Positions 14,882 through 32,252 of a stretch of 42,996 bases of DNA are shown piece after piece. A program made the position numbers and the translations under genes. A model generated the notes under the pieces. That model saw only the letters and a list, made by a program, of their open reading frames with translations, made no database searches and had not been told where the DNA came from. This DNA is from Gammaproteobacteria bacterium (lineage in GTDB: Bacteria > Pseudomonadota > Gammaproteobacteria > S012-40), in assembly GCA_919902765.1 (NCBI GenBank), contig CAKKRP010000051.1:1-42996 (forward strand). The letters are read 5' to 3'. Numbering within the stretch: position 1 is the first letter of the stretch; the number at the start of each line of letters is the position of its first letter.

Positions 14882-15619
14882 ATGCCAGAAATCAATCATT
14901 GCGATCTTGCGGGATTATTGGCGGCAGAATCTCTCAAGGACATCGAAGAAAAAGCGTCTCATTTAGTAAATGCACTAGGCTATGATGTTTTCGTAGCGGG
15001 TGTGCAGCGTGCTGGACGAATTCATGTTGTGAGTACTTACTCGCAGACCTGGCGGGCAATCTATGACGAACAAAATTTAATGGACAAAGATCCCACCGTC
15101 CTACACGCACGCCGTTCTACCCTGCCTTTGGTTTGGCACCCCGAACTTTTTCTACAAAAAGACGCGGCGTCGTTGTTAGAGCAGTCGCGCTGCTATGGAA
15201 TTTCCAGTGGACTCTCCATACCCGTACATGGCTCTAACGGTAGCGCTGCAATGACCAGCTTTGCCTCGGGCAGGGAATTTGGTGATGAACAGAAGCGTCA
15301 TGTGCAAGAAAATTTACCTGCCTCTATGTTACTTTCGACGTATCTATTTGAGGCTATCCAGCGCGTCGGTTCAACAATCACAGGTGAAACCGGTGCCGAG
15401 GCGTCGGCAGGTGAAACCGAAATATATTTAACTCCAAAAGAAACTGAATGTCTAAAATGGTCTGCAGCGGGTAAAAGTTCTTGGGAAATCGGTACAATCA
15501 TGTCATGTACAGAACGCACAATTAATTTTCATTTTGGGAATATTATAAAAAAATTAGGCGTTTCCAACCGGCGCATGGCCGTCGCGAAGGCCATCGCTAC
15601 AAAGTTAGTCAGCATCTAA
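14882..15619 (+). CDS. luxR: LuxR-family acyl-homoserine-lactone-responsive transcription factor
   Basis: The 245-residue regulator has an N-terminal autoinducer-binding domain and a C-terminal LuxR helix-turn-helix. The invariant ligand-pocket residues known from TraR occur at matching positions: Trp57, Tyr61, Asp70, Pro71 and Trp85, with a glycine near 110. In the DNA-binding domain the conserved Glu187, Leu191 and Gly197 lie in LTPKETECLKWSAAGKSS. All nine signature positions are thus met, so it should bind an AHL. It is convergent with a luxI gene and is the likely reader of the lux boxes at 16460 and 28786. A stop codon lies in frame 6 nt before ATG 14882. The purine run GAAGG directly abuts the ATG, so translation initiation may be weak. 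Confidence 0.93.
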   Translation: MPEINHCDLAGLLAAESLKDIEEKASHLVNALGYDVFVAGVQRAGRIHVVSTYSQTWRAIYDEQNLMDKDPTVLHARRSTLPLVWHPELFLQKDAASLLEQSRCYGISSGLSIPVHGSNGSAAMTSFASGREFGDEQKRHVQENLPASMLLSTYLFEAIQRVGSTITGETGAEASAGETEIYLTPKETECLKWSAAGKSSWEIGTIMSCTERTINFHFGNIIKKLGVSNRRMAVAKAIATKLVSI

Positions 15620-15638
15620 GTTCCTTCAGATCAATTAA

Positions 15639-15670
15639 CCTAGAAACGGCATCCAATCGCTGTTTCTAGG
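15639..15670. terminator. Hairpin between convergent luxR and luxI
   Basis: CCTAGAAAC / GTTTCTAGG is a perfect 9-bp stem with a 14-nt loop, located 20 bp after the luxR stop and 46 bp before the luxI stop. It is flanked by AATTAA on the left and ATTAAAGATTTT on the right. It could terminate both genes, although neither side has a long T run. Confidence 0.5.
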
Positions 15671-15715
15671 ATTAAAGATTTTGCCTAGTGCGTTTGACAT
15701 AGTGCGGGCTGAATA

Positions 15716-16375
15716 TCACCCATGCATGATAGCGGCGGTGTTTAAGCGTGAATTTCGACCAAATTCTGCTTGGTTAAGTTCGATCCGGGTCTGCGCGGCC
15801 AAAAATAGGGCCGCATGTGTCACGTCGTCTATTTCTATGCTCAGCGCAACTGCACGCTCTACTCCAATTTGCCGCAGTTTACCTAAACGGGCGACGCTAA
15901 CGCCCAAACGGCGCAACATTCTTTCCAGTGCCACATTAGTTACCGTAACGTAGCGACGAATATTGTTCTGTACTGCGAACGTGTATGCCGCCTGCATCAT
16001 CAAAAAAGGAACCATGCTGGTATATCCGGCAACATGTTCTCTGCTGTTGGATTCGGTAGCAAAACGAGATAGCTCCCAGATGTCATTTGATCCGGGCGCG
16101 CAGCTTCCATCCAATAATTCAGGAAAGGTATCACGCAACATGTTGGGTCCCGTGGTTGGCAACATACGCCAGGAGCCAATGACGTTTTTCCCGCCGTCAC
16201 GTACCAATAAATAGACTGGGTTTAATAAATCATAGGAGTCGAGTTCCTGCTCATTTTCGCCGCATACTTCCCAGTTAAGTCGCTGGCGAAATACACGGTA
16301 ACGCAGGTGATGCATGTTTTGTAAATCTTCTTGAGCCAGCCCGTCATATTCGCGATGTGCAATGATTACGTTCAT
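15716..16375 (-). CDS. luxI: LuxI-family acyl-homoserine-lactone synthase
   Basis: It makes an N-acyl-L-homoserine lactone from S-adenosylmethionine and an acyl-ACP. The 219-residue protein carries every classical invariant residue at its canonical number: Arg25, Phe29, Trp35, Asp46, Asp49, Arg70, Phe84, Glu101 and Arg104. A threonine in the VTVTN strand (about 144) sits where LasI/EsaI-type enzymes favour 3-oxo acyl chains, but the actual chain cannot be predicted. The start ATG 16375 has a perfect GGAGG site 8 nt upstream. A lux box and a -10-like hexamer upstream suggest positive autoinduction. The gene lies directly behind the biosynthetic operon on the same strand, so read-through from that operon could also feed it. 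It converges with luxR. Confidence 0.96.
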   Translation of the reverse strand: MNVIIAHREYDGLAQEDLQNMHHLRYRVFRQRLNWEVCGENEQELDSYDLLNPVYLLVRDGGKNVIGSWRMLPTTGPNMLRDTFPELLDGSCAPGSNDIWELSRFATESNSREHVAGYTSMVPFLMMQAAYTFAVQNNIRRYVTVTNVALERMLRRLGVSVARLGKLRQIGVERAVALSIEIDDVTHAALFLAAQTRIELNQAEFGRNSRLNTAAIMHG

Positions 16376-26366: not shown

Positions 26367-27384
26367 TCAATGTAAGAGTGCGACGCCGTAATTCCACGAC
26401 GCCGTTTCTATGCCCAACACGCCGACATAACTCTCGCCGGGATGGATATTTCCACGCTCTACGGCCCTTGCCATAGCGCGAAAAATCGCCGGCGCAGGAC
26501 AATTTCCGATTTCGTGTCCAACATAGAAGCGTTTACTATCCATGCTGTCATTTCCGGCGACGCGAATCATGGAGCGATTTACCTGCGGTACGATCAAGAC
26601 ATCGATTTTATCCGCGTTCCCGTCTACCGGCCCGAGCATGTCTTTCATGGCGCGTGCCGCCACGTCCGGCAAAACGCTGCGTATGCTGCGATGGTTGTGT
26701 ATCGCGGAACCGGACGCATCCAACGAAAATCCGACGTCGCGCAAATGAAAACGCGAGGCGATATCCGCGTGTAGTACGCGCAAACCCTTTGTTTTAGGAT
26801 TCGCCTGTACGACTATCGCTCCGCCGCCATCCGCGAATGCCAGACCGTTCATCAAATTTTCACTTGATAATTTTGCATTGGCCTTTAATAAAGGTGCGAA
26901 ATACGCCGGAGAAATGCAATCCGCCGCAGTAACTAACACCGTTTTGGCGCGCCCGCTTTCAATAAGAGTACAAGCGGTGGTTAGCGCCTGCATCGCTACC
27001 GTGCAACCCCCCCCGCAAGTCCAATGTCCGAATCTCGCCTAGACCGAGTTTTCGTTGTATTTGATAAGTGAGTGGTGGCAGCCGGTCATCCGGAGTGGAA
27101 GAGGATGTAATCAGAAAATCCACTTCGCCTACCTCTACGCCTGCCTGTTTCAAAGCACGTTGCGCCGCACGCACGGACATCTCGGTGGTGCCTAAACCAG
27201 GTTCGCGGCGCTCGCCGGTGGCCGGATCAATCACGTAGTGACGTGACTCAACGCCGAAATAATTCATAAGCGTAGTGACTGGCGTCTGCAACGCGACCTC
27301 TAATTCCGCGTTAGTCACCGGCGGCCCCGGGGAATAGTCCGCGACACCGGTGATCGCGATTTCCTTGCTGTCTCTGAATGTCAC
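26367..27384 (-). CDS. KAS III-like 3-oxoacyl-ACP synthase, reading frame shifted at a G8 tract
   Basis: The gene starts at GTG 27384 (AGGAG 8 nt upstream) and reads MTFRDSKEIAITGV to TLDLRGG. A run of eight G on the coding strand (C8 at 27007-27014) throws it out of frame. With seven G it reads on as RGGCTVAMQALTTA and continues to the stop at 26367, about 338 residues, the normal KAS III length. The catalytic cysteine is the first residue after the tract. Downstream, the usual HQAN motif is PQVN, so the catalytic His is lost, while the GN of the Asn motif (IGNCPAPA) is kept. It may prime the pathway, act as an acyltransferase, or be a second chain modifier. The frameshift is a sequencing error, a real mutation or a slippage switch. 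The sequence cannot tell which. Confidence 0.8.
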
Positions 27385-30424: not shown

Positions 30425-31207
30425 CTATTTAAATATCATCCGCATCATCTTGCCATGTGTCTTTTCGGCGAGCGTTTGATATTCCCATAAGGTATCCGGG
30501 TTGTCGCGTCCTAAAGGTAAGGTGAAAACGGGCGCTGGAATGCTGAAATAATGGATTTCGTCCGTTGCGGGCTCATCGCCGATCAACAAATAGGCACCCG
30601 GCGCCGGCGCGTTTTGTGCGGCGCGTTTAAAGGCGTCGCCTATGGTTTCGTTATAACCGGTAAACGGCGCGCCTTCCATCAGGTGGTCGAACATTTCACC
30701 CATGGTGCCGGAATAGGTCGCGGCATTGCCGTCGGAAAACCAGGTGATGGCGGTCAATTTTTTGCCGGAACGCGTGACGATTAAACGTAAAATGGGAATT
30801 AAAAAATTCGATATTCCGTGCATAGACCCGCTGGCATCGACGATCAAGTGTAAATCTTTGCCGGGAAGGTCGTGTAGGCCTTGCACGAACAAATCGAAGT
30901 CTTTGCGTCCCTTGCTGCCTTCCAGACCCGCGTACCCTAATACTTGATCGGCTTGAGTCTTGGGGTCGCTGGCGGCGAGATGTTCCAAGTCGCTTTTTAA
31001 ACGCGCCTCTTTCTTTTCTTCGTTTGCCAGTTGCGCGCGCAATTCTTGTATTTCGGCCTTCAATTTCGGCACTTGCTCGGTGGTTGCAAGTTTGTAGGTC
31101 ATCAGTGTAATAATGAAAATAAACAAAAACATCGTCAACATCTGCATGGCGATGTCGGCCAAGATTTGGTAGATGCCGTCGCGCGATGCCGTTTTTCTAC
31201 CCCGCAT
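30425..31207 (-). CDS. MotB/ExbD-like membrane protein fused to a von Willebrand factor A domain
   Basis: The 260-residue protein has a short basic N-terminus, then one helix with the pattern ILADIAMQMLTMFLFIFIITL. Asp18 sits at the position of the proton-binding aspartate of MotB/ExbD/TolR. A charged coiled coil (about 45-80) follows, then a vWA domain whose MIDAS motif DASGSM (124-129) is intact. Peptidoglycan-binding OmpA or ExbD C-terminal domains are absent. Lying 7 bp after a MotA/ExbB-like gene, it likely forms the stator-type proton channel's plug subunit. The vWA domain would replace the usual peptidoglycan or TonB contact and bind a partner protein in the periplasm through a metal ion. 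The function of such fusions is not known to me. Confidence 0.78.
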   Translation of the reverse strand: MRGRKTASRDGIYQILADIAMQMLTMFLFIFIITLMTYKLATTEQVPKLKAEIQELRAQLANEEKKEARLKSDLEHLAASDPKTQADQVLGYAGLEGSKGRKDFDLFVQGLHDLPGKDLHLIVDASGSMHGISNFLIPILRLIVTRSGKKLTAITWFSDGNAATYSGTMGEMFDHLMEGAPFTGYNETIGDAFKRAAQNAPAPGAYLLIGDEPATDEIHYFSIPAPVFTLPLGRDNPDTLWEYQTLAEKTHGKMMRMIFK

Positions 31208-31214
31208 GAGTGTC

Positions 31215-32252
31215 CTACCGCCAGCCTATCATGCGCGCGATATAGAGTTTTATTTTGCCCCACCACGAGCCATAGCGCATGGTTTGCAAATCCAATTCAT
31301 GGCGCAATAACGCGGCATATTCATGATGGTTTTGCAAAAATTCGCGCAGGCGTTGACGTTCTTCTTGGTTTCCCGCGACCGCTTGCATGTGTTGAATTTG
31401 TTGTTGGAATTCGGCCATAGAATTGCGTGTTTTTGCAAAGACGCCGTGCAATTGTTCGACATTATTGCTGAGCACCTGTACTTGCGCGTCGAGCAGACGC
31501 AGATCGCGTTCCAACGACGGTTCCATGTCCGTTGCGCAATGCACCAAACATATGCGCAACATCGCGTCTTGCAGCGAATCGACGCCGTTTTCATTGATCT
31601 GTGCGAACATACGCAGCAACACGCCACCAAACACCGCGCCCAATAAAGTGGTGTAAAATGCCGTACCCATCCCGGCCATGGCACTGCGCAGGCCGCGCAA
31701 TAATTCGTCTTGGTCTTGTCCTAACGCATCCAATGATCCGGTCAAGCCCGTCAAGGTCATCGTCAAACCCATTACGGTGCCGATCAATCCCATGGTGATC
31801 AAGATATTGCCCAATAACTCGACCATTTGCGACAGGCGTAAAAAATGCGCGACTTCGATTTCGATGAGGGTGCTGACATCGGGACGCGCGCCTCCGCTGA
31901 TAACCACGGTGCGCAAGGCGTGAAAAAAACGTTCTACGACACGGCGGCTAGTGGGGTTGCCGCTAATGCCGGTCAGCCCTTGATGTTCGGCGTAGGATTC
32001 CAGTTCGGTGACTTTGACATATTCTTGAGTGACCAGCCAGGTGATCGCAAAACTCAACAACACGCCGAATAAAAACAACACCAAAATGATCCACGTGACA
32101 CGGCTAGGGTCGTGTTTAATGAAATCCCAGACCTTGGTGTCTTGATACAGGCTCAGGTATGCCGCCAGCGCCGCCGCCGCCCATGCGACCCATAACATCA
32201 TGGTGCGATAGCCGCGTTGCGCCGCAAAATTTTTGTTGACCGCTTGGGTCAT
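31215..32252 (-). CDS. MotA/TolQ/ExbB-family proton-channel protein
   Basis: The 345-residue protein has two N-terminal helices (about 18-35 and 53-75), a cytoplasmic segment and the MotA/ExbB core. That core comprises the third and fourth helices, LLGNILITMGLIGTVMGLTMTLTGL and GMGTAFYTTLLGAVFGGVLLRM, including the family's conserved Gly and Thr residues. A long cytoplasmic, coiled-coil C-terminus of about 115 residues follows, longer than in ExbB/TolQ. It is expected to form a pentamer around a dimer of the vWA-fused partner encoded next, using the proton gradient. A GGGGGG site lies about 6 nt before ATG 32252. The layout recalls ZorA/ZorB of Zorya defence and other MotAB-like units, but no associated nuclease or helicase gene is present. 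Confidence 0.85.
   Translation of the reverse strand: MTQAVNKNFAAQRGYRTMMLWVAWAAAALAAYLSLYQDTKVWDFIKHDPSRVTWIILVLFLFGVLLSFAITWLVTQEYVKVTELESYAEHQGLTGISGNPTSRRVVERFFHALRTVVISGGARPDVSTLIEIEVAHFLRLSQMVELLGNILITMGLIGTVMGLTMTLTGLTGSLDALGQDQDELLRGLRSAMAGMGTAFYTTLLGAVFGGVLLRMFAQINENGVDSLQDAMLRICLVHCATDMEPSLERDLRLLDAQVQVLSNNVEQLHGVFAKTRNSMAEFQQQIQHMQAVAGNQEERQRLREFLQNHHEYAALLRHELDLQTMRYGSWWGKIKLYIARMIGWR

Follow-up and report, generated by a model that had tools for sequence, protein, structure and literature searches.

The locus raises the question of what a MotA/ExbB-type proton channel gene does together with a partner that ends in a von Willebrand A (vWA) domain instead of a peptidoglycan- or TonB-binding domain, given that 5:2 motors are known to power flagella, gliding, and the Ton and Tol systems. 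In the window, by which we mean the whole 42,996-nucleotide stretch of DNA analysed here, the two genes, which we call A and B, lie on the minus strand between rpiA and an MFS gene, with B downstream of A after a gap of 7 nt (Table 1). The sequence-only reading had described a MotA/ExbB-type gene followed 7 bp later by B, and the coordinates, strand and Pfam score agree with this. In our view, A and B probably form a proton-driven 5:2 motor. Its vWA axle would work on a partner in the periplasm or the inner membrane, and the motor would share a pathway with a further protein, c6.

Table 1. Positions of the A and B genes and of their main features in the window.
Feature	Position	Strand	Basis or remark
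A, putative MotA/TolQ/ExbB-type proton channel subunit	31215..32252	minus	345 aa, four membrane helices
A Thr159 codon, GLIGTV motif	31776..31778	minus	aligned with first TolQ-type ring threonine; invariant
A Thr202 codon	31647..31649	minus	aligned with second TolQ-type ring threonine; invariant
B, transpore-helix/vWA subunit in MotB position	30425..31207	minus	260 aa
B Asp18 codon, putative proton-carrying residue	31154..31156	minus	invariant in 66/66 homologues
B membrane helix, residues 15-33	31109..31165	minus	hydropathy; inside AF2 helix 10-79
B coiled-coil helix, residues 34-79	30971..31108	minus	AF2 continuous helix 10-79
B vWA domain (predicted), residues 112-260	30428..30874	minus	AF2, Foldseek, VIA
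B MIDAS loop D124-A-S126-G-S128	30824..30838	minus	sequence conservation
B presumed fourth MIDAS ligand Thr188	30644..30646	minus	T 59, N 6, S 1 of 66
B MIDAS Asp211, GDEP motif	30575..30577	minus	invariant in 66/66

The A protein matches Pfam MotA_ExbB (PF01618) with 28.8 bits, above the curated cut-off of 22.9, and shows four hydrophobic segments by hydropathy and a C-terminal tail of about 125 residues, which by analogy would be cytoplasmic. In an hhalign comparison with TolQ/ExbB-type sequences from the same genomes, T159 and T202 align with the threonines of the motifs GTV and TAxG, at a modest probability of 42%. The first is conserved in 69/69 ungapped sequences among 70 distinct A proteins, and the second in all 70. 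A match over the cut-off and two invariant ring threonines support the stator-like channel proposed from the letters of the sequence.

Hydropathy analysis of B revealed a single membrane segment (residues 15-33), with Asp18 near its N-terminal end, and no second membrane helix. Profiles from Pfam, NCBIfam and PADLOC gave no vWA match in B, and since the family libraries miss this domain its fold was examined by structure prediction. AlphaFold2, run on the single chain with an alignment of 13 sequences, returned, with a mean pLDDT of 77, a continuous helix spanning residues 10-79 and after it an alpha/beta domain. Residues 112-260 of the model match vWA/integrin I domains (Foldseek E 1.1e-4), and comparison with vWA (VIA) gave a Z of 12.5 over 140 residues at 2.7 Å. 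No OmpA-type, ExbD-type or peptidoglycan-binding domain was matched in B by Pfam, and the structure search gives vWA. The proposed architecture, with one membrane helix bearing Asp18, a coiled coil and a vWA domain replacing the peptidoglycan- or TonB-binding domain, is thus borne out by hydropathy, the predicted fold and residue conservation.

The DASGSM motif had also been read as an intact MIDAS, which went beyond the family libraries, since Pfam has no vWA match in B. This reading holds except in one detail: D124, S128 and D211, as well as D18 and E187, are identical in all 66 distinct B sequences, and position 126 is always S or T, whereas the presumed ligand Thr188 is variable (Table 1). 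The net charge of B averages +1.9 before Asp18 and +0.9 after the helix, a small difference, and on the basis of this positive charge and the single membrane helix the topology is probably N-in/C-out, which would put the vWA domain in the periplasm. The alternative placement in the cytoplasm, which would speak against a stator-like device, is disfavoured by this same charge bias and single helix. As the coiled coil of 46 residues measures about 7 nm, the vWA pair would, unless extended further, be expected close to the inner membrane or to the wall, and not at the outer membrane.

Proteins of this general architecture were recently predicted (PMC12204202, June 2025): their genes lie beside a lone tolQ-like gene, and they join a vWA domain to a transpore helix whose Asp sits inside the Thr ring in AF3 models. 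The Idiomarina-type family described there consists predominantly, though not universally, of heterologous vWA gene pairs. Both families combine a MotA/TolQ-type gene with a single-helix Asp protein ending in vWA, both lack a tolR/exbD gene nearby (none was found near A-B at the loci read), and both belong to Proteobacteria. They differ in that Idiomarina-type loci mostly carry two different vWA genes and those studied here carry one, a distinction drawn from the published description only. In a search for Idiomarina-type pairs, we found no MIDAS-bearing neighbour of other MotA/ExbB-type genes in the fetched flanks of six genomes. No second vWA gene was seen at the fetched A-B loci either, and with one vWA gene per locus a homodimer of B is expected. 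The A-B family is thereby likely a variant of the vWA-tipped motor predicted in 2025. Apart from PMC12204202, we did not find the architecture described in the searched literature that names vWA with these motors. The suggestion that this might be an undescribed motor family must therefore be narrowed, because a vWA-tipped motor has been published. What is new is the simpler version with one axle gene and its association with c6, neither of which is reported in that study.

Other relatives are more distant in their domain composition. TolQR/ExbBD share with A-B the channel subunit family, both ring threonines and the Asp-bearing helix, but B has no ExbD/TolR periplasmic domain and the tail of A is longer. 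MotAB share the gene order, an Asp close to where the axle helix begins and a C-terminal periplasmic domain, which is of the OmpA-type peptidoglycan-binding kind in MotB and vWA in B. The SHLS-type vWA force transducers (PMC12204202) likewise tether a vWA domain to the inner membrane and tie it to a motor, but they are TolA/TonB-like add-ons with separate tolR-like genes, whereas B would itself be the Asp-bearing axle. No separate TolA/TonB-like transducer was noticed at the locus.

The genome survey proposed for vWA-fused MotB-like genes was carried out for B. We found B in 15 of 37 relatives, including all 13/13 members of family f1, and in 33/369 gammaproteobacterial genomes belonging to 14 families. 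It also occurs in another 43 genomes drawn from the phylum, taken as Zetaproteobacteria from the named loci there (Mariprofundaceae). Every match in the 369 gammaproteobacteria had an E-value below 1e-100, and no weaker, more distant matches to the B profile were found in them at E 1e-4; a plasmid search with B gave no match. In homologous pairs A lies just upstream of B, mostly with a gap of -55 to +30 nt. The pair is conserved at approximately 37-92% identity, which together with the invariant key residues places it far beyond chance.

The gene c6, which accompanies this pair, encodes a protein roughly 490 residues long and rich in hydrophobic segments. Its first loop, after helix 1, holds an acidic motif, in which E39 is invariant. 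It was found in the same 15/37 relatives as B. Among the 369 gammaproteobacteria, 31 genomes have both genes, two have B only (G170 and G315, both draft genomes), three have c6 only (all of family f113) and 333 have neither (phi 0.92). Counted by family, 12 have both, two B only and one c6 only. A candidate for a third component, the GldG/ABC operon that neighbours c6, was rejected as unspecific, being present in 207/369 genomes; kept as a control, its GldG-like gene gave a phi of 0.22 with B. Among the B-bearing Zetaproteobacteria, c6 occurs in 37/43, and the co-occurrence holds even where the genes are unlinked. Shared ancestry could inflate it. In an rpoB tree of 22 genomes with low support, B needs six changes and c6 five. 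Supported branches yield just three independent pairs, a number that does not allow significance; c6 followed the direction of B in about two of them and hardly ever went against it.

Gene order points in the same direction, since c6 adjoins the motor genes in four families on sides that vary by family, suggesting that more than one arrangement kept c6 and the motor together. In nine f1 genomes the order is c6, A, B on the same strand, beside a cytochrome c/oxidase cluster, and in eight of these nine a bactofilin gene lies after or close to B. Five genomes, from f34, f64 and f101, carry c6 directly after A and B instead, again on one strand, and in nine Zetaproteobacteria c6 is found about 3-8 kb from AB. 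Overall, cytochrome or NO-stress genes are neighbours of c6 more often than motor genes are.

Several further observations concern these neighbourhoods. The unlinked gammaproteobacterial c6 genes (L106-L118) have a cytochrome c/oxidase cluster on one side and a mutM/DUF4340/GldG-like/ABC operon on the other. The c6 genes of the Zetaproteobacteria (L193-L202) neighbour apparent genes for truncated haemoglobins, an Rrf2-type regulator and a flavin/ferredoxin reductase, all named from sequence. In the sister genome of the window (G001), a bactofilin gene directly follows c6 (L123, 7947-9888), with AB on another contig, and in G000 c6 is interrupted by contig ends (C156, C19). Genome G315, where AB is present and c6 was not found, carries a BepA-like M48 peptidase-TPR gene directly upstream of A (L132, 9236-12641), and a related gene lies divergently beside c6 in f113, which has c6 without AB.

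Taken together, these data are best accommodated by a rotary motor of the inner membrane, driven by the proton motive force, in which a pentamer of A would surround a homodimer of B. The Asp18 of each B helix would ferry protons past the Thr159/Thr202 ring of A, and, by analogy with characterised 5:2 motors (PMC9389320, PMC11890865), proton passage would turn A against B. The coiled coil of B would hold the paired, metal-dependent vWA domains out into the periplasm on its 7 nm of helix, where they may grip a protein partner via the MIDAS. The best fit would be a partner located at the inner membrane or close to it, which might be c6 or its product, and the motor would serve an envelope process that also needs c6.

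An alternative, which we regard as unlikely, is that B acts as a MotB-style anchor, with the vWA domain holding on to a fixed envelope structure (the cell wall, or a protein attached to it) while the A pentamer turns around B. The output would then be on the cytoplasmic side, with the tail of A acting, for example, on a cytoskeletal partner like the f1 bactofilin. That this tail is longer than in TolQ-type proteins, and that ZorA profiles match A residues 141-298, would suit such an output, as would the bactofilin genes placed near B in the eight f1 genomes and after c6 in G001. The bactofilin link is nevertheless limited to f1 and absent at the loci of the other families and of the Zetaproteobacteria, so that bactofilin was rejected as a general partner, and no peptidoglycan-binding domain was found in B by Pfam or the structure search.

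It is also conceivable, but quite improbable, that the A-B pair performs no work and is instead a regulated proton channel or a sensor, in which ligand binding by the vWA domain gates proton entry via A. A gated leak and a motor look alike in sequence, and the plugs of MotB are evidence that an axle subunit can control flow (PMC9389320), but the characterised relatives with an Asp/Thr ring are described as motors (PMC9389320, PMC11890865). A Zorya-like anti-phage sensor, with these ZorAB relatives signalling to a nuclease, can be set aside as most improbable, since, although the closest profile matches are ZorA for A (E 5e-8) and ZorB for the N-terminal helix of B (E 0.001), both from PADLOC, this assignment was rejected on neighbours and domain: ZorC, ZorD and ZorE relatives are absent among the nearest window genes examined, B occurs in 13/13 f1 genomes and many Zetaproteobacteria, unlike a patchy defence island, and ZorB has a peptidoglycan-binding domain (PMC11890865) where B has vWA. 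The tail of A also differs from that of ZorA in being shorter.

Returning to the proposed proton-driven motor acting through its vWA axle, the nature of c6 bears on what its partner may be. No family library names c6, and a PDB sequence search with its profile gave no match. Weak matches to PMT_2 were obtained for 3/32 members (best E 3.3e-5), and hhalign against GT-C gave a probability of 25%, with controls at or below 1.5%; an AlphaFold2 model built from only two rows had a pLDDT of 37 and was discarded. From this weak resemblance, c6, a polytopic membrane protein, may be a glycosyltransferase of the GT-C type. On this basis we tentatively raise the idea, doubtful as it is, that a homodimeric vWA-tipped 5:2 motor cooperates with a periplasm-facing c6 of the GT-C type, and perhaps acts on it directly. 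Proton flow would in that case power or position a step in the assembly or export of lipid-linked glycans. We know of no 5:2 motor for which such a job has been demonstrated. Until now, vWA-tipped motors have been predicted with neither function nor partner assigned; a conserved, chromosomal motor with a single axle gene, present in 14 sampled families of gammaproteobacteria and in Zetaproteobacteria and co-inherited with c6, makes the question of their function testable.

The window also contains a LuxR-type regulator gene together with a LuxI-type autoinducer synthase gene (14882-16375), bordering a fatty acid synthase-like (aryl-polyene-like) cluster that extends as far as about 28.7 kb. 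A ketoacyl synthase III-like gene at 26367-27384 appears split between two ORFs that overlap in different frames; a frameshift or an assembly error may be the cause.
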